Part shown: positions 1,501-13,112 of the stretch, piece by piece
Layout of the letters: each line of letters starts with the position of its first letter
How positions within the stretch are numbered: position 1 is the stretch's first letter
Assembly (NCBI GenBank): GCA_016783505.1
Contig: JADHWK010000049.1
Span: 1 to 15,983 of the forward strand
Origin: Candidatus Zhuqueibacterota bacterium
Lineage (GTDB): Bacteria > BS750m-G25
Length of the DNA stretch: 15,983 nt
Direction: 5' to 3'
The notes under the pieces: generated by a model
Told to the model about the DNA's origin: nothing
The model's database searches: none
The model's input: the letters and a program-made list of their open reading frames with translations, nothing else
Position numbers and translations under genes: made by a program

Positions 1501-1595
1501 TTAAGCTGAAGGTAAATGATTCTTTTCCCAAGATCGTTTCCCCCTGGCCGGGCAGGCAAGACCCTTCGGGCCGACAAGGTTCAACCTTGAAAGAA
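1501..1595 (+). repeat. Dispersed ~95-base repeat, copy A (lacks 19-base insert)
   Basis: From TTAAGCTGAAGGTAAA to CCTTGAAAGAA this stretch matches 8413-8528 almost base for base in the same orientation. The block from CCGGGCAGG to GAAAGAA (about 48 bases) is identical in both. Copy A lacks the 19 bases present at about 8461-8479 in copy B. It contains small hairpins (GACCCTTCGGGCC; AAGGTTCAACCTT). Short open frames crossing it are by-products of the repeat. The rest of the 1238-1719 spacer shows no gene. Confidence 0.8.
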
Positions 1596-1863: not shown

Positions 1864-3477
1864 ATGACAAATAAACATTTAATATTAGTTTCAATGTCTT
1901 TGGTTTTTCTAAATTCTTTCTTATTTGCTGAAGAATTATTATTTTGGGATGATTTTGAACAAGATATTCCCGGACAACCACCTACAAATTGGTCTCCATA
2001 TGGTTTCCCTCCAGACACTATTGGTTATATTGAAATTATAGAAGAGTCAGAATCGAATAATGTTTTAAAAATTCATCCTAACTCAATGGCTATGATTCAA
2101 AATTACGATTGCCAGTTTCAGTATACAATTCAAGTCAAATGGAAAGCGCCACTTGATACTATTGGCTATATGGCTGGAATAAGAATTCCACATGGAATAA
2201 CATTTTACTATGGATTTTGGGTTGGTCCGGGACTTTATATTAGCGACCCTATACCTACTTGCCTTTTTGTTGAACATTACAGTTATGATATTCAACCAGG
2301 TGAATGGTATTATATGAAATTAAATCTTCAAGAAGGCATTTCTTCTTTCAAAATGTGGCATTGCGATGAAGATGAACCCGATTTTATGGTAAGTTGGGTA
2401 TATGGGGATATTACTTATGGTTTTTCACTTTTTTCTCTTGAAAGAGATGATCTATTTGATGATGTAACCATTTATGGAGAAATCTACGATGAATTTAACT
2501 TTATTGTCTCAGAAGAACATCTTTTTCCAGGATTAAGAGACAACATAGGTTTAGGTAATGATGGTGAATATATATGGTTTGGTGGAAAAAGGATGTATGG
2601 TACAAGTCCTATATTATACAAATATGATCCAGAAACGGAAGAAATTATAGATTCACTTGAGGTAATTGATGATTTTTATGTCAGAGGATTCACTTATACT
2701 GAAGATCATCTTTGGGTTTTAGGCTTTCAAGATTCTATATTGTGTATTCTGCAAATTTCTCCTTTATCAGGAGAAATAATGGATACTTTGATATGTTCTA
2801 ATTATCCTTTTTACCAACATGGAGTCGATGGGCCTACCTATGATGGTGAATATTTCTATTATGAATACTTTGATGCGATATATAAATTTGATCCACAAAC
2901 AAATACGCTTGTGGACTCTTTTCAAATACCTGGAATAAGAATTAAATATTTTATCTACCATGAAGGGAATTTCTATATTCAATCTTTTTTTAATGATTTA
3001 CTTTTTGTCCTTGACGCTGATGATGGGGAAATTACTGGAATAGGTCACTGTGATTATCCAAAAGGATATTGGCCTGTGGGAATAACTGTTTTAAATGACT
3101 ATTACTGGATAGCTTCGGCTAATGTTTGGCCAGCAGACTTGGAAGGAGAACTAACCTTTTATATAACTGAATTAGTTACAAATAGTATTCCGGTACAAAT
3201 TTATACCCTATTTCCAAAACAAATTGATATTGATAATTATCCCAATCCATTCAATCCAACGACGACTTTTAGATATGGTCTGCCAAAACCCTCGGATGTT
3301 ACGTTAACGGTCTATAACCTTCTGGGTCAAAAGGTAGCTACCCTAGTGGAAAAATACCAAAATGCTGGATACTATGTGGTTCAATGGGATGCTACTGATT
3401 TAGCTTCTGGCATCTATTTCTACCAGATCACCGCCGGCAACCTTACCCAAACCAGGAAAATGCTGTTGCTCAAATAG
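1864..3477 (+). CDS. Secreted protein with type IX secretion C-terminal sorting domain
   Basis: Predicted 537-residue cell-surface or extracellular protein; function not recognised. Residues 1-22 form a signal peptide ending LFAEE. Residues 26-210 begin WDDFEQDIPGQPP and look like a beta-sandwich, reminiscent of concanavalin-type domains (low confidence). Residues 225-440 contain spaced repeats such as DGEYIWFGG, DGEYFYYEYFDAIYKFDP and LDADDGEITG, suggesting a beta-propeller. Residues 454-537 are a clear Por/T9SS type A sorting domain: YPNPFNPTT, then YNLLGQKVATLV, LASGIYFYQ and the terminal RKMLLLK. By family knowledge it is exported by Sec, then translocated by T9SS with removal of this domain. 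The start is supported by GAGGT six bases upstream and by the TTGACT/TATAAT promoter. The body is strikingly AT-rich compared with other genes here, while the sorting domain is closer to the local average. No T9SS machinery gene is in view. Confidence 0.85.
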   Translation: MTNKHLILVSMSLVFLNSFLFAEELLFWDDFEQDIPGQPPTNWSPYGFPPDTIGYIEIIEESESNNVLKIHPNSMAMIQNYDCQFQYTIQVKWKAPLDTIGYMAGIRIPHGITFYYGFWVGPGLYISDPIPTCLFVEHYSYDIQPGEWYYMKLNLQEGISSFKMWHCDEDEPDFMVSWVYGDITYGFSLFSLERDDLFDDVTIYGEIYDEFNFIVSEEHLFPGLRDNIGLGNDGEYIWFGGKRMYGTSPILYKYDPETEEIIDSLEVIDDFYVRGFTYTEDHLWVLGFQDSILCILQISPLSGEIMDTLICSNYPFYQHGVDGPTYDGEYFYYEYFDAIYKFDPQTNTLVDSFQIPGIRIKYFIYHEGNFYIQSFFNDLLFVLDADDGEITGIGHCDYPKGYWPVGITVLNDYYWIASANVWPADLEGELTFYITELVTNSIPVQIYTLFPKQIDIDNYPNPFNPTTTFRYGLPKPSDVTLTVYNLLGQKVATLVEKYQNAGYYVVQWDATDLASGIYFYQITAGNLTQTRKMLLLK

Positions 3478-8163: not shown

Positions 8164-8393
8164 TTTCAGTCAGGCGGGCCTGTAGCAGAACTATCGCAAT
8201 TGATAATTTAGGGGTTATGGTTAGAACCGCTCTAAAGAGCGGTTCTGGTTAACTGGTTATTAAAGAAAGCTTTAACCAGAACCTTATCCCGATGCTTCGG
8301 GATAGGTTCCGCCACTTGCTGGGTAGGCGAGATCTTCAAACGGAAAATCAAAAAATTTTTAGTTGTGCCACAGGCCCAGGCGCCTGACTGAAA
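8164..8393 (+). mobile_element. Non-coding element with conserved terminal inverted repeats, copy 1
   Basis: About 230 bases bounded by TTTCAGTCAGGCG and its inverse CGCCTGACTGAAA. Inside the ends, GGGCCTGT-a-GCA-g-AACT (8176-8192) faces AGTT-g-TGC-c-ACAGGCCC (8361-8377), a 17-position stem with two mismatches. The same ends, in reverse orientation, bound 12866-13112; the interiors differ. No credible protein is encoded. Comparison with the unoccupied repeat at 1404-1595 suggests it was inserted into an older repeat. It could be a MITE-like element needing a transposase elsewhere, or a structured RNA with a conserved closing stem. I see no clear target-site duplication. Confidence 0.6.
8223..8309 (+). 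other. Three overlapping, mutually exclusive hairpins inside the element
   Basis: Hairpin 1: AGAACCGCTCT (8223-8233) with AGAGCGGTTCT (8236-8246), 11 pairs. Hairpin 2: GGTTCTGGTTAA (8241-8252) with TTAACCAGAACC (8272-8283), 12 pairs. Hairpin 3: GAACC+TATCCCGA (8279-8292) with TCGGGATA+GGTTC (8297-8309), 13 pairs with one bulged T. Hairpin 2 uses the 3' arm of hairpin 1 and the 5' base of hairpin 3, so either 1 plus 3 or 2 alone can form. No T-run follows, so this is not a simple terminator. Confidence 0.6.
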
Positions 8394-8412
8394 GGTTATA
8401 CCATAACTCATG

Positions 8413-8528
8413 TTAAACCTGAAGGTAAAATAATTCTTTTCCCAAGATCGTTTCCCCCTGGGAGCGTAGCCTCTTACGGACCGGGCAGGCAAGACCCTTC
8501 GGGCCGACAAGGTTCAACCTTGAAAGAA
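8413..8528 (+). repeat. Dispersed repeat, copy B (with 19-base insert)
   Basis: Same sequence and orientation as 1501-1595 apart from a few changes and a 19-base insert GAGCGTAGCCTCTTACGGA between CCCCCTGG and CCGGGCAGG. The insert can itself fold (CGTA/TACG). The region from here to the next gene (8529-8666) has no gene. Confidence 0.8.
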
Positions 8529-8621
8529 AAATGGAGGGAAGGTTTGAAGGTTGGGTTTCCACTTATCCATTATGCCCTTGTCAACTTTGGGAACCCCGGG
8601 GTATCAATAGCTAACCCAAGC

Positions 8622-8660
8622 CCCAATAACTCAATAACTTAATAACTTAATGACTCAATA
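8622..8660 (+). repeat. Short imperfect tandem repeat before the radical SAM gene
   Basis: Four to five imperfect copies of a nine- to ten-base unit of the type ATAACTCAAT / ATAACTTAAT run up to the start of the radical SAM gene. The AT-rich stretch could ease melting or initiation. The start codon at 8667 has no Shine-Dalgarno sequence. Confidence 0.5.
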
Positions 8661-8666
8661 ATTTTA

Positions 8667-9701
8667 ATGGCTATGTTCAGGGAAGAATTTCTATTTATCA
8701 AAAAGGCCTTTAAGCCAAAAAAGTTTTGGAATGTTACTAAACTGGCAGCGGGGTATCTCGTTTCCAGGGTTTTTCATCGCCCCTTTGTTTGGGGGTATCC
8801 CCCCGCTGTGATGATTGAACCCACTAATCTGTGCAACTTAAGATGCCCCCTATGTCCCTCGGGAAACGGAACGTTGAAGCGGGAAAAAGGATATTTAGCT
8901 TTTGACCTATACCGACAGATCATTGATGAGATTAAGGATTATGCCTATATGGTCATCCTCTGGAATCAGGGAGAATCCTTCCTGCATAAGGATTTCCTGA
9001 AGATGGCCCATTATGCCTCCGATGTCGGACTTTATACCTATGTCAGCACCAACGGTCATTTTCTTACACCCCCGGAGCCCATCGTACGATCCGGAATAGA
9101 CACCCTGTTGATTTCCGTAGATGGCGCCACCCAAAAGACCTATCAGAAATATCGTATTGGGGGAGATCTGGATAAAGTCTTTTCAGATCTGGACAGCCTC
9201 GTCGAAATCAAGAGAAAGATAGGCAGTCGCACCCCCTATACGATTTTGCAATTTATTATCATGAAACACAACCAACATGAAATCCAGGATATAAAAATAT
9301 TAGCAAAAGAATTGAGGGTTGATAAACTCATATTAAAATCCGCCCAGATTTACTGTCAGGAAGACATTGGCGCCTTTCTCCCCCGTAATTCTAAATTCAG
9401 GCGTTACCGGGTGGAGGGAACAAACTTTCAGTTAAAGGCAAAACTAAAGAAGACCTGTTGGACCCTGTGGCAGCAGCCAGTGATCAACTGCGATGGGGTG
9501 GTGACCCCCTGCTGTTTTGACAAGGATGCCTTCTATCCCATGGGTAGGATGACCAAGGGAAATACCTTAGGGACCATCTGGAAGGATAAGCCCTTCCAAA
9601 ATTTCAGAGCCGCCATCCTGACCAAAGGCCGCATCCTCCCAATTTGCAAGAACTGCGGCGAGGGTCTGAAGCTTCAGATTAAACAGATCGAACTGGTTTA
9701 A
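8667..9701 (+). CDS. Radical SAM / SPASM-domain enzyme
   Basis: 344-residue iron-sulfur enzyme of the radical SAM superfamily. The CNLRCPLC motif (Cys56, Cys60, Cys63) binds the [4Fe-4S] cluster that cleaves S-adenosylmethionine. Other core signatures follow: LWNQGESFLHKDF (the GGE-like strand, 98-110), YVSTNG (125-130) and LLISVDGA (147-154). The C-terminal part carries a SPASM-like cysteine set: Cys264, Cys275, Cys282/Cys283 and Cys327-x-x-Cys330, with DGVVTPCC as expected for an auxiliary cluster. The N-terminal 45 residues are basic and amphipathic. Known SPASM proteins modify peptides or sugars; the substrate here is unknown, though the glycan context suggests a sugar, lipid or glycan precursor. 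The start could also be the ATG two codons later. Its TAA overlaps the next ATG by one base, so the two products are probably made together and may work together. Confidence 0.88.
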   Translation: MAMFREEFLFIKKAFKPKKFWNVTKLAAGYLVSRVFHRPFVWGYPPAVMIEPTNLCNLRCPLCPSGNGTLKREKGYLAFDLYRQIIDEIKDYAYMVILWNQGESFLHKDFLKMAHYASDVGLYTYVSTNGHFLTPPEPIVRSGIDTLLISVDGATQKTYQKYRIGGDLDKVFSDLDSLVEIKRKIGSRTPYTILQFIIMKHNQHEIQDIKILAKELRVDKLILKSAQIYCQEDIGAFLPRNSKFRRYRVEGTNFQLKAKLKKTCWTLWQQPVINCDGVVTPCCFDKDAFYPMGRMTKGNTLGTIWKDKPFQNFRAAILTKGRILPICKNCGEGLKLQIKQIELV

Positions 9702-10636
9702 TGAGCCGAAAAAAAATCTTCACGATCATCAAACTGATCATTACCGTCCTCGCCCTTATCATCATTATCCGGGTCGTAAAGGTAGATATAATTCTCTCCG
9801 CTATCGGGAACGCCCATTTTGGGTATTTTCTGGCGGCGGCCGGGCTTTTGCCCCTCAACGTTGCCTTGCAGTATTTTAGATGGAGATTTCTATTAAGGCT
9901 AATCGCCCCCACGATTAAGAACCACGAAGTCTTTGGCTCCTTAATGGTCGGATATACCTTTGGGATAATGACCCCGGGTCGGTTGGGGGAATACGGCCGG
10001 GTGTTTTATCTCCGCAACTGCAGTCGTCTCCAGGCATTCGGCCTCTCGGTTCTCGACAAGATTTACTCCATGATCGTCACCCTATGCATCGGAATGATCG
10101 GGCTTTTTCTCATACCTAATTTCATTTTAGACAAAAATCTTTATGTGGTAGTTTCTGTCCTGCTTTTTATCTTAACTGTTATTTTTATTCTCCTTTTCTT
10201 TGCCTTAAACCCCAACATCCCCCGGAGCTTATTGTATAGTATCAATATTATTCTTCCCCGCCGGGAGAAAATCAAGAAACTAATTGGCAGTCTGGATCAT
10301 TTTCATTACCGGCAAGCCAGGATCTTACTCTCTTTCTGTTTGGCTTTTTACGTCACCTTTACCCTCCAGTTCTTTCTGCTGACCCGGGCCTTCGAAAATG
10401 TGGGCCTTTTCCCGGGTTTTATCTCCATCGCTTCTACCATGGTGATTTTAATATTGCCCATTTCCTTAGCCAATCTGGGTATCCGGGAATTAGCAGCCGT
10501 TTTTTTCTTTCACCAATTTGGGATTCAAAGCTATACGGCCTTCAACGCCGCCTTTATTTTATTCGTGATCAACATCCTCATCCCCAGCATCATCGGAATA
10601 CTGTTGATTCCCAAAATACCCGTTAATAAAGAATAA
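9701..10636 (+). CDS. Multi-pass membrane protein, LPG synthase TM / flippase-like family
   Basis: 311-residue integral inner-membrane protein with about eight hydrophobic segments (10-27, 40-58, 78-90, 118-140, 147-168, 210-228, 239-262, 276-301). Family marks of the lysylphosphatidylglycerol synthase TM region (UPF0104) are visible: TPGRLGEYGR at 91-100, VLDKI near 117-121 and PISLANLGIRE in the third quarter. The family fold includes domains that move or act on lipid-linked substrates across the membrane; homologues in glycan loci are often called flippase-like, but the function is not proven. ATG 9701 overlaps the radical SAM stop (TAATG), indicating translational coupling. Context suggests a role in translocating or handling the glycolipid made by the neighbouring glycosyltransferases. 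It is not a canonical Wzx flippase. Confidence 0.8.
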   Translation: MSRKKIFTIIKLIITVLALIIIIRVVKVDIILSAIGNAHFGYFLAAAGLLPLNVALQYFRWRFLLRLIAPTIKNHEVFGSLMVGYTFGIMTPGRLGEYGRVFYLRNCSRLQAFGLSVLDKIYSMIVTLCIGMIGLFLIPNFILDKNLYVVVSVLLFILTVIFILLFFALNPNIPRSLLYSINIILPRREKIKKLIGSLDHFHYRQARILLSFCLAFYVTFTLQFFLLTRAFENVGLFPGFISIASTMVILILPISLANLGIRELAAVFFFHQFGIQSYTAFNAAFILFVINILIPSIIGILLIPKIPVNKE

Positions 10637-10676
10637 TCGTCCTGTTTGGCTACTATATCTTATTTTTCTTGAACTT

Positions 10677-11453
10677 ATGGATACAATTAAAACTCCATTT
10701 TTTGATCAGTATGGGGATGAAATAATATTTCAAGACAATTTCGATCTCATCAGGAAACTCTCCCATATTGATTGCTCTGTTCCCAAAAGGACTCATGGGC
10801 GTAGGTCATGGCACCGGGAAAGGTACTGTCTTAAATTTTATCTTATGCGACTTTTTCAGAATAACCTTTTGAATTTTCCATTTCCATTGAAAATTAGAAA
10901 GCACGAAGCCCCTGATTTCCTTATTTTAAGTAGCGATGGAAAAATGATGGGGTTGGAAGTGACAGAAGCATCAACGGAGGATCATCAGCGTGTAATGACA
11001 GAATTAGAAAAGAGCCCACAAGGGACAATGTTGATGACCCTTGATTTATTCAACCTTGAAAAGTCTCCATTACCCAAAGGGGAATATAAAAAGGCATTAT
11101 GGAAGCCTGGCGAAAAGTCGATTGGAAAAGTATGGGGAAATTCAGAGGTAAAAAGAGTATGGATCGATATTATTTTAAGCACAATTATCGAAAAAACTAA
11201 AAGCTTAAATAAACTAAACTTTAAAACTGCCGACAGATACGAGCTTTTAGTTTATGACAATAGCCATGTTGCAGAAATGCTCAATAGTAGATACGCATTA
11301 CCTTTGCTTAGAAAAGCTATTGGTGAAAAGCTTAATCTGGCATCTTATGATAGAAATTTTCACTCCATATCAGTGATTCATATTGAAGGGTTATTATACG
11401 ACGTCGCAAATAAAGGGCTTGTTTTGAAAGCAGAGACAGACAATACTGCATAG
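10677..11453 (+). CDS. Orphan AT-rich protein, possible PD-(D/E)XK-like fold
   Basis: 258-residue soluble protein, not recognised with certainty. No signal peptide or membrane helix. The segment APDFLILSSDGKMMGLEVTE (78-97) has the layout of a restriction-endonuclease-like core: Asp80, a beta-turn, then Glu94-Val-Thr96, where a lysine is usual at the Thr position. A later helix IIEKTKSLNKL (170-180) could supply the lysine, and YELLVYDNS (188-196) looks like the following core strand. A basic stretch KRTHGRRSWHRERY lies at 37-50. The gene is clearly more AT-rich than its neighbours, starts 40 bases after the flippase-like gene without a Shine-Dalgarno, and is followed by a repeat remnant, so it may be a late arrival in the locus. 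A nuclease role is only an inference; another alpha/beta fold is possible. Confidence 0.6.
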   Translation: MDTIKTPFFDQYGDEIIFQDNFDLIRKLSHIDCSVPKRTHGRRSWHRERYCLKFYLMRLFQNNLLNFPFPLKIRKHEAPDFLILSSDGKMMGLEVTEASTEDHQRVMTELEKSPQGTMLMTLDLFNLEKSPLPKGEYKKALWKPGEKSIGKVWGNSEVKRVWIDIILSTIIEKTKSLNKLNFKTADRYELLVYDNSHVAEMLNSRYALPLLRKAIGEKLNLASYDRNFHSISVIHIEGLLYDVANKGLVLKAETDNTA

Positions 11454-11512
11454 GTCACAGGCTAAAAAATAAATATCTAAATGCTACGCACTTTTATTTG
11501 TCCGGGAACGTT

Positions 11513-11548
11513 ATCAGTCTATTTCATTGGTCAGGCGACCGACTGATT
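11513..11548. repeat. Remnant of the terminal-inverted-repeat element
   Basis: ATCAGTCT at the left and GGTCAGGCG followed at once by ACCGACTGAT look like the left end of the element at 12866-13112 joined directly to its right end with the interior lost. It lies between the orphan gene and GT2 B, mimicking the placement of the full copies beside the other GT2 genes. Confidence 0.45.
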
Positions 11549-11574
11549 TTAGCGTATGAGGATGTAAACAGATT

Positions 11575-11579
11575 AGAGG
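11575..11579 (+). promoter_or_regulatory. Ribosome binding site deciding the GT2 B start
   Basis: AGAGG five bases before the ATG at 11585. It favours this start over the upstream in-frame TTG at 11498, whose extra 29 codons would run through the repeat remnant. Confidence 0.65.
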
Positions 11580-11584
11580 CAATA

Positions 11585-12751
11585 ATGATCCTATCTGATT
11601 TCTTATCCTTGATACTACTGGCCTGTTTCACCGTTTACGGGGTGTTTTTATTGTTGTTTCTTATTGGATTGGGAAGGCTGACTTCCCCCAAGGAGAATGT
11701 AACTATCCCTCCCTTCATCTCGGTCGTCATCGCCGCCAGGAATGAAGAGGATAACATCGCCACTACCCTCAAATCCCTGACCCGTCAGGATTATCCCCGG
11801 GACAGAATGGAATGGATCGTGGTGGACGACCGCTCCACCGACCAAACGGCCGCCATCGTCGAGGGGTTTCAGCCCACCATGCCCTGGCTGAAACTTCTCC
11901 GGGTGACCCAATGCCCCCCCCAGGTTTCCCCCAAAAAGCACGCCCTGGAGCATGGTATCCAGAATGCAAAAGGGGAAATCATTGTGGCCACCGACGCCAA
12001 CTGTCAATTTGACCCCGGGTGGCTCTCCCATCTTTTGGCCTATTTTCAATCCGACGTGGGTGCCGTGACTGGATTGACCGAGTTTTACTGGGAAGGAAAT
12101 AGGGTACCTCTATGGCAAAAAATACAGGCTCTCGACTTCTTATCCTACTCCTTCTGCGGCGCCGGGGCTGTTGGCTTGGGGATGGCCTTCAACGCCAACG
12201 GCCATAACCTGGCATACCGCAGAAAAGTGTTTGAAGAAGTGGACGGATACCAGGGCCTTCACCGAAATGTCTCCGGGGATGATATCCTGCTTATACAGAA
12301 AATTGATCGCCAGACCGGGTGGAAAATAGTCTATGCCGTTGATCCGGAAACAGTGGTAAAAACAAAACCCGTGTCCAATCTAAAGGAGCTCTTTCAGCAG
12401 CGCTTCCGATGGGGATCCAACGGCCCCTACTACCGACCCTTAGTGCGTTTTTTCCTTACCTTCACCTTTCTTTTCTACTGCATGTTATTCCTTAGTCCCT
12501 TATTCATTTTGTTAGGGTGGTTGAATTGGAAAATTTTCATAATAGGCCTGTTGGGCAAAATCATATTTGATTATCTGGTGGTCTCAACAGGCTTGAAGAG
12601 GTTTCAAATATCCGGAATGAAGAAATACTTCTGGCCCACCCAATTAGTCCAGACACCCATGATCCTGCTGTTCGGAATCGGTGGATTTTTCTTCAAATTT
12701 ACCTGGAAGGGACAGCGCCTTGCTGCTACTCGTGACGTTCCAACTAAGTAA
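11585..12751 (+). CDS. Membrane glycosyltransferase, family GT2 (paralogue B)
   Basis: 388-residue inner-membrane GT2 enzyme with an N-terminal helix (7-30) and C-terminal membrane segments (about 286-312, 316-333, 360-376). Catalytic domain: SVVIAARNEE (46-55), VVDDRSTDQT with Asp81-Asp82, ATDANC with the DxD-equivalent Asp-Ala-Asn at 137-139 (Asn replaces the second Asp), SGDD at 230-233 and a full QQRFRW (271-276). The complete QxxRW and paired aspartates match polymerising or BcsA/PgaC/NodC-like enzymes, though polymer synthesis is not proven. ATG 11585 is chosen because AGAGG precedes it and the N-terminal helix begins here. The closest relatives in the window are the GT2 genes at 7025 and 13137. 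A PPQVSPKKHALEHGIQNAKG segment mirrors PPGKKPALEKGIAASQG in paralogue A, so A and B look closer to each other than to C. Confidence 0.87.
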   Translation: MILSDFLSLILLACFTVYGVFLLLFLIGLGRLTSPKENVTIPPFISVVIAARNEEDNIATTLKSLTRQDYPRDRMEWIVVDDRSTDQTAAIVEGFQPTMPWLKLLRVTQCPPQVSPKKHALEHGIQNAKGEIIVATDANCQFDPGWLSHLLAYFQSDVGAVTGLTEFYWEGNRVPLWQKIQALDFLSYSFCGAGAVGLGMAFNANGHNLAYRRKVFEEVDGYQGLHRNVSGDDILLIQKIDRQTGWKIVYAVDPETVVKTKPVSNLKELFQQRFRWGSNGPYYRPLVRFFLTFTFLFYCMLFLSPLFILLGWLNWKIFIIGLLGKIIFDYLVVSTGLKRFQISGMKKYFWPTQLVQTPMILLFGIGGFFFKFTWKGQRLAATRDVPTK

Positions 12752-12865
12752 TGCTAAAAATCAATTAAAGCAATAAAAACCTGAACTCAACGGCGAGTTG
12801 AAATTCTTAAGAAACCCCCGATTTTAATCGTGGGAACCAAATACAAAAATACAAAAGAATAGATG

Positions 12866-13112
12866 CAACCGATCAGTCTGGCGCCTGACAGATTCATCGG
12901 TTTTCGGTCAGGCGCCCGGGCCTGTGGCACAACTCTGAAACCGCTGGTTTCCTCTTTGCGTGACAATAAATTATCACGCTATCTCAACGAAAGTCCCGAA
13001 ACTTCGGGACTAATAACAGTTATGTTTCAACATACTTTCTTAGAGTTAGCATAGGGATTTATTCCTATGCGATAGTTCTGCAACAGGCCCGCCCGACTGA
13101 TTCGTGGGTTGC
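12866..13112 (-). mobile_element. Non-coding element with conserved terminal inverted repeats, copy 2
   Basis: Fills most of the 385-base gap between GT2 B and GT2 C. Outer ends GCAACCGATCAGTC and GACTGATTCGTGGGTTGC are inverted repeats. Inner ends GGGCCTGTGGCACAACT (12918-12934) and AGTTCTGCAACAGGCCC (13074-13090) match copy 1 in reverse orientation, with mismatches at the same two positions. The left side has an extra CAGTCTGGCGCCTGAC palindrome. Interior hairpins: AAACC/GGTTT at 12938-12950, GCGTGA/TCACGC at 12958-12979, the 20-base AGTCCCGAAACTTCGGGACT at 12992-13011 and GCATAGG/CCTATGC at 13049-13070. No gene is credible in it. The 12752-12865 stretch before it shows only a weak AACTC/GAGTT hairpin. 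Confidence 0.6.

Follow-up and report, generated by a model that had tools for sequence, protein, structure and literature searches.

Two short sequences in the window, the 15,983-nucleotide stretch of DNA analysed here, have similar ends and dissimilar interiors, which raises the question of what kind of unit keeps its ends while its middle changes. The sequence-only reading had offered two answers, a non-autonomous mobile unit with a replaceable cargo of hairpins or a structured RNA closed by a fixed stem, and had called for a genome search for more copies. That search was productive: the contigs of the source genome (2.5 Mb, about 60% complete) contain 29 copies with both ends and about six partial ones, a family of roughly 35 copies that we term E. 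Our results suggest, with a probability of about 0.8, that E is a family of non-autonomous, MITE-like DNA elements that are moved in trans, are non-coding and have distinct left and right ends.

The 29 paired copies are 153–256 bp long, contain no convincing open reading frame, and are dispersed between genes with essentially no overlap with coding sequence. Copy 1 in the window (8176–8377, + strand, 202 bp), delimited by its ends, its target-site duplication and alignment with 12 other copies sharing its type A interior, starts with the left end GGGCCTGTAGCAGAACTATCGCA (8176–8198) and finishes with the right end AGTTGTGCCACAGGCCC (8361–8377), both kept in the 29 copies. Copy 2 (12918–13090, − strand, 173 bp) was delimited in the same way by ends, duplication and alignment with its type B relatives, with the conserved end motifs at 13068–13090 (left, GGGCCTGTTGCAGAACTATCGCA) and 12918–12934 (right). 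The coordinates first assigned to this pair, 8164–8393 and 12866–13112, do contain both copies; they also take in flanking half-palindromes and 4-bp duplications that are not part of the element.

An inverted-repeat search found 33 nt shared at each end of the two copies, with 94% identity in each case, in line with the initial estimate of about 30 bases. The ends (GGGCCTGT.GCA.AACT) form imperfect terminal inverted repeats of 17 positions, and the two conserved mismatches initially seen in this stem hold across the 29 copies: T lies opposite C at position 9 in 21/29 and G opposite G at position 13 in 27/29, copy 1 being an exception at position 9, with A opposite C. The ends are indeed not interchangeable, as positions 9 and 13 read T..G in 23/29 left ends and G..C in 26/29 right ends, and in types A–C the left end is followed by ATCGCA or a closely similar sequence. 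Conserved, oriented ends had been thought not to fit a transposon; this objection does not stand, because insertion sequences commonly have end repeats that differ from each other and contain mismatches. An integron attC site was rejected, as the E end reads AGTTGTGC rather than the GTTRRRY of attC core sites (GTTRRRY/RYYYAAC), and the copies are intergenic and dispersed, with no cassette array.

The DNA flanking E indicates movement. Each of the 29 copies splits a 20-bp palindrome, TCRGTCRGGCGCCYGACYGA, which the sequence-only reading had missed, and is flanked by a 4-bp direct repeat whose two sides match exactly in 22/29 and at three of the four bases in 5. Removing one copy of the 4-mer restores the palindrome at 28/29 sites; in the exception, the type D copy L075, the flanking 4-mers do not match and the palindrome is not restored. 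The flanking 4-mers (GGGC, AGGC, GCCC, GCCT, AGGT and GGGA) vary together between copies, which is required of a duplication but not of the ends of an element. E lies at one fixed point of the palindrome, with the duplication adjoining the palindrome's centre, and is found in both orientations relative to this off-centre site (about 15 and 13 copies by hand tally). At copy 1, AGGC at 8172–8175 is identical at 4/4 positions to AGGC at 8378–8381, and the left half-palindrome TCAGTCAGGC (8166–8175) joined to the right half GCCTGACTGA (8382–8391) gives TCAGTCAGGCGCCTGACTGA, all on the + strand. At copy 2, the identical duplications GCCC occupy 12914–12917 and 13091–13094 (+), and the half-palindrome TCGGTCAGGC (12904–12913, +), together with 12914–12917 and the remainder GACTGA (13095–13100, +), gives TCGGTCAGGCGCCCGACTGA. 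Beside copy 2, at 12873–12892 (+), a further 20-bp palindrome, TCAGTCTGGCGCCTGACAGA, can be read that is slightly diverged and not interrupted.

The palindrome also has a distribution of its own. It occurs uninterrupted at 102 sites in the source genome (control, 1), is present as a 20-base insert in other repeats without E, and nests in further copies of itself at one fixed point without duplication. One such palindrome lies inside a B core. In L077 and L086, the same 20-mer occupies the same point of the B core at different loci, which shows that E is copied together with its contents. Very small, dispersed, apparently mobile and nested, the palindrome would have a parallel in the small dispersed repeats (SDR) of cyanobacteria reportedly described by Elhai et al. 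in 2008 (cited in PMC3116915); its sequence and host organism differ.

The interiors of E are hairpin sequences of four types, A (13 copies, including copy 1), B (11, including copy 2), C (3) and D (2). Interiors of different types score only 0–28 bits against each other, consistent with the initial impression that the two window copies share little inside; copies align throughout within a type and not between types. Types A and C are also found without E ends. The type A interior is an inverted pair of REP-like hairpins with a conserved CTGG/CCAG tag, occurring as singlets and doublets; in copy 1 this core (8225–8308, +) has the form AACCG-tip-CGGTTCTGG ... CCAGAACC-tip-GGTT. The interiors are mosaic: type A has two alternative right-hand inner segments, R1 and R2, with R1 also carried by C, a diverged R1-like segment by D, and R2 by B. 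No core-less E was seen in the source genome, and core acquisition is proposed from the solo copies and mosaics. Together, the 29 paired copies, 4-bp duplication, fixed insertion point and four interiors, two of them also solo, support the mobile-unit alternative of the sequence-only reading.

The type A module, which also stands solo elsewhere, flanks a transposase gene. The pattern AACCG-N-CGGTTCTGG has 25 matches (control, 0), three of them beside a tnpA gene on contig C80, with the module on both sides of this single-copy Y1 gene. Its product matches PF01797 (E 1e-20) and scores 71.5 bits as an IS200/IS605 transposase (cut-off 55), whereas its REP_Tyr_transpos score of 26.7 is below the cut-off of 80; with CTGG/CCAG in place of GTAG, the combination of a GTAG tag and a RAYT-type transposase is not seen here.

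For E itself, no full-length version with a transposase gene, that is, a cognate autonomous transposon with the same ends, was found in the roughly 60% of the genome available. The one DDE_Tnp_1 gene found, of the IS701 family and on contig C88, was rejected as a partner, as its own end repeats, CTAAACTATTGTA, differ. By eye, the E left end GGGCCTGTTGCA resembles what we take to be IS6-family ends, GG..CTGTTGCAAA. A derivation from this family was nevertheless rejected, given a duplication of 4 bp rather than 8 bp and no IS6-type (PF13610) gene found in the incomplete genome. We propose that a DDE-type transposase, not found in this incomplete genome, would recognize both E ends and the palindromic target. 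Other hairpin repeats may have inserted into E or recombined with it to provide the interiors, and each resulting E would then have been copied as a unit.

Two other readings assign the palindromes a different role. The ends of E could be a passive long palindrome, a landing site for several REP dimer (REPIN) families, with the cores alone moving. REP dimers within longer palindromes are known from A. variabilis, T. roseum and H. neapolitanus (PMC3733652), and the A core is REP-dimer-like and adjoins a Y1 transposase gene. However, whole E copies sit within a 20-mer that can be restored by removing 4 bases, which indicates that E itself moves; moreover, the insertion common to the L077 and L086 interiors recurs at different loci, and no empty E palindrome was found in the source genome, leaving this reading unlikely. 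Alternatively, the palindrome halves, present at every paired copy, could be the outer ends of E, with uninterrupted 20-mers being remnants left after its loss. This is the least probable of the readings considered, given that the 4-mers on the two sides covary, that there are about three uninterrupted 20-mers for each E, and that these 20-mers are found inside other repeats and one another with no E involved.

The proposal that E copies are genes for structured non-coding RNAs, in which variable hairpins lie within a fixed closing stem, draws on the conservation of that stem and on the strong folding of both window copies, with z-scores from DNA folding of −6.4 for copy 1 and −7.3 for copy 2 and a range of −6.4 to −8.8 over all runs. 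Stem columns are also less variable than others (0.028 versus 0.111 in type A, 0.044 versus 0.095 in type B), a measure biased by the use of the same alignments for stem prediction. However, the stems show equal numbers of G-T and A-C events (18 versus 18), as expected without strand-specific RNA selection, and there is only one Watson–Crick switch. The orientation of E relative to flanking genes is likewise unbiased (12 ++ and 12 −−), and the equal orientations and lack of wobble-pair strand bias both argue against an RNA gene. Strict and relaxed Rfam searches gave sub-threshold matches only, none at the gathering score, and the position of E is set by a target palindrome with a duplication. 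We therefore regard an RNA gene, the other alternative first raised for this locus, as very improbable. E is best read as an unusually layered variant of known bacterial mini-transposons.

Bacterial MITEs are intergenic, non-coding elements of 50–500 bp with terminal inverted repeats, a target-site duplication and strong secondary structure (PMC10969869). E shares with them its short length, non-coding nature, inverted repeats, fixed 4-bp duplication, many intergenic copies and secondary structure, but has at least four interiors under one end pair, at least two of which are repeat families in their own right, and is near-absolutely specific for one point of a dispersed palindrome. The insertion sequences IS1397, ISKpn1, IS621, ISPpu9/10, ISPsy8 and ISRm22, which target REP palindromes (PMC1525189), likewise enter a dispersed extragenic palindrome at a single fixed position; these have their own transposase gene, whereas E is a miniature without one and its target is self-nesting. 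The type A core resembles REP/REPIN–RAYT systems (PMC3116915, PMC3733652) in being a tagged inverted hairpin pair beside one single-copy Y1 (HUH) transposase gene, but its tag differs from both GTAG and CGTC, the C80 protein is of the IS200/IS605 type and below the REP-transposase cut-off, and the pair is carried within another element. Where REP dimers lie within longer palindromes (PMC3733652), palindromic outer ends similarly surround a REP-like pair; in E the outer palindrome is itself mobile, with a 4-bp duplication, and encloses several unrelated cores.

These features may, more tentatively and at somewhat less than even odds, reflect a layered mobile-DNA economy. The self-nesting 20-bp palindrome, inserting precisely without duplication, would be the sole landing pad for E, and E would be a carrier with fixed ends that swaps its interior between independent REP/REPIN-like hairpin families, with the result that a single transposase would spread the hairpins of others. 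A limited literature search did not find this combination, although palindrome-specific insertion and REP/REPIN-like cores each have precedents. Small hairpin repeats are usually grouped together as palindromic repeats; here three kinds of them are told apart and found stacked in a readable order within one genome. For the questions of how palindromic repeats of very small size move and how new interiors enter miniature elements, the module-flanked Y1 gene, the self-nesting 20-bp insertions and the 4-bp duplications offer testable substrates.

Within the source genome, the E end motif, with up to two mismatches, has 64 sites compared with 14 for a reversed control, and a longer 21-mer of the end has 27 compared with 0, which puts the family well above chance. 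Among 84,980 public species genomes, the left end gave one unrelated match, in a Pseudomonadota MAG in which the flanking palindrome is absent; viral contigs gave zero matches, and nothing was found in 58 other genomes, none of the same phylum. Weak further end matches on contigs C28, C42, C49, C76 and C77 (position 1920) were judged not to be elements, and a second site on C77, at position 2767, is a decayed E left end containing a palindrome.

A search of the source genome (2.51 Mb in 89 contigs, estimated to be 60% complete) with copy 1 (window 8176–8377, plus strand) and the end motif indicated that this copy and copy 2 (12918–13090, minus strand), the pair singled out in the sequence-only reading, are real members of a dispersed, non-coding, MITE-like family, E. 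The search returned 29 copies with both ends, 153–256 bp long, and partial copies on contigs C7, C23, C47, C63, C72 and C77. The end motif matched 64 times in the genome versus 14 for a reversed control, and a longer form 27 times versus 0. The 17-position terminal stem was retained in essentially every copy, and the two mismatches that had been reported at constant positions proved to be conserved family-wide, with a T–C mismatch at position 9 in 21/29 copies and a G–G mismatch at position 13 in 27/29. These mismatches arise because the left and right ends differ in sequence, which is ordinary for insertion-sequence ends and alone is no mark of RNA.

Halves of TCRGTCRGGCGCCYGACYGA lay on both flanks in 29/29 copies. 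Deleting one 4-bp copy beside the element restored a 20-bp dispersed palindrome, or a variant with few substitutions, in 28 of the 29, the sole exception being a copy with a type D interior (genome stretch L075); the rejoined flanks represent a paralogous empty site from this genome. The flanking 4-mers matched exactly in 22/29 copies and at three of four bases in 5/29, and took several different values that agreed between the two sides; this repeat is a target-site duplication. As uninterrupted 20-mers with at most two mismatches numbered 102 in the genome (versus 1 for a control), insertion of 29/29 copies at a single point in one 20-mer means a near-absolute target preference.

We infer that the palindrome is itself mobile. 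It occurs as a 20-base insert in the type B core between GCA and TAGG (L077 and L086), between TTTA and TTGG in one C-type repeat (C3:11483) and, with one adjoining base changed, in another C-type repeat (C27:50051). Within other palindrome copies it always enters at one off-centre point (between TCRGTCNGGCG and CCYGACYGA), without duplication, and at one locus (L090, 1319–1380 and neighbourhood) palindromes are nested three deep, each at that same point. The same B-core insert is found at two separate loci, L077 and L086, and E was therefore copied with the palindrome inside.

The proposal that fixed ends enclose unrelated interiors was borne out: the interiors form four types, A (13 copies, 164–256 bp; including copy 1), B (11 copies, 153–228 bp; including copy 2), C (three) and D (two), which scored 0–28 bits across types and aligned over their full length within each. 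Some A and B copies carry extra small inserts at fixed places (among them TCCG...GGAGGCTACGCTC in A and CCCAAGATCTTTACGA in B), and hairpin tips are swapped, with TATC-TTTA-GATA or TATCCCGA...TCGGGATA in type A and a different tip in B copy L069. Type A has two alternative right-hand inner segments, R1 (GCAACGTTTRCTAGTTGTG), common to A and C and in diverged form also to D, and R2 (GGAAAATCARCAATTT..GGGTTGTG), common to A and B; because different types share these segments, the family is mosaic. A second dispersed repeat of ~80 bp, near-identical at window 1514–1595 and 8428–8528 (CCCAAGATCG..GGAGCGTAGCCTC..CCGGGCAGGCAAGACCCTTCGGGCCGACAAGG), has parts similar to inserts within some A and B elements.

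The A core is an inverted pair of REP-like hairpins (AACCG-tip-CGGTTCTGG, spacer, CCAGAACC-tip-GGTT). The pattern AACCG-N-CGGTTCTGG had 25 genome matches versus 0 for a control, the majority within E copies and several more as solo singlets or doublets; two of the 25 are chance matches resembling coding sequence, and three flank a single gene on C80 that encodes a 151-residue Y1 transposase (PF01797, 1e-20; NCBIfam IS200/IS605, 71.5 bits). The A module is present on either side of this gene, and the A core is therefore a REPIN-like repeat inside E with a candidate cognate transposase. Type C likewise exists independently of E, as solo, diverged 100–120-bp repeats; a genome search found no B sequence outside E or its fragments. 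Three further Y1 genes (C89, C32 and C5) are each bracketed by their own hairpin repeats: that on C89 (L123, about 1090–1920) by a hairpin array (AACCGTTAAAACGGTT, CACCCGAATAAATTCGGGTG, CACCACGATTCATCGTGGTG) that is repeated directly and almost unchanged on the two sides, and that on C5, a REP-associated tyrosine transposase gene above the NCBIfam cut-off (L126, 1200–2090), by AAACAGGGTTTGTAACCCTGTTT and AGACACCGTCACAGACGGTGTCT repeats. A type A hairpin singlet on C49 (L097, about 1990–2060) sits directly upstream of the ribH start, in the small space separating this gene from ribBA; both genes are apparent assignments made by eye.

The sequence-only reading had offered either a mobile unit or a structured RNA. 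Copies 1 and 2 fold strongly (one of the two tested on both strands), and stem columns in types A and B are less variable than others, the stems having been predicted from the same alignments. A transcript made from one strand is expected to favour G–T over A–C pairs; against a structured RNA, stem substitutions comprised 18 of each, with one Watson–Crick switch, orientation relative to flanking genes was 12 to 12 and Rfam gave no family match. The copies are intergenic, save for ORF-prediction overlaps at three. Dispersal, duplication and mosaic interiors uphold the mobile unit, and the evidence favours mobility at the DNA level.

In such a mobile unit, a DDE-type transposase would act on both ends and recognise the palindrome, and new interiors may come in through insertion or through recombination at shared hairpins such as the first hairpin common to B and C (GCATAGGAATAAATTCCTATGC and GGATAGGAATCAATTCCTATCC). 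Neither a DDE-type gene with E-matching ends nor an IS6-type gene was found in this ~60% complete genome; the sole DDE_Tnp_1 gene was rejected as a partner, being of the IS701 family with ends different from those of E.

Every layer of the system is separately precedented, by MITEs (PMC10969869), insertion sequences entering REP palindromes at a single point (PMC1525189), REPINs with RAYTs (PMC3116915) and REP dimers within longer palindromes (PMC3733652). A limited search of open-licence literature turned up no account of miniature elements that both insert specifically into a palindrome and have several interchangeable hairpin cores.

Elsewhere in the window, an ORF of 258 residues (10677–11453) with no Pfam match has genes for a membrane protein and a glycosyltransferase on its two sides. 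Judged by eye, the protein encoded at 1864–3477 ends in a C-terminal segment (YPNPFNPTT...) similar to a type IX secretion sorting domain, which would point to an FCB-like lineage.
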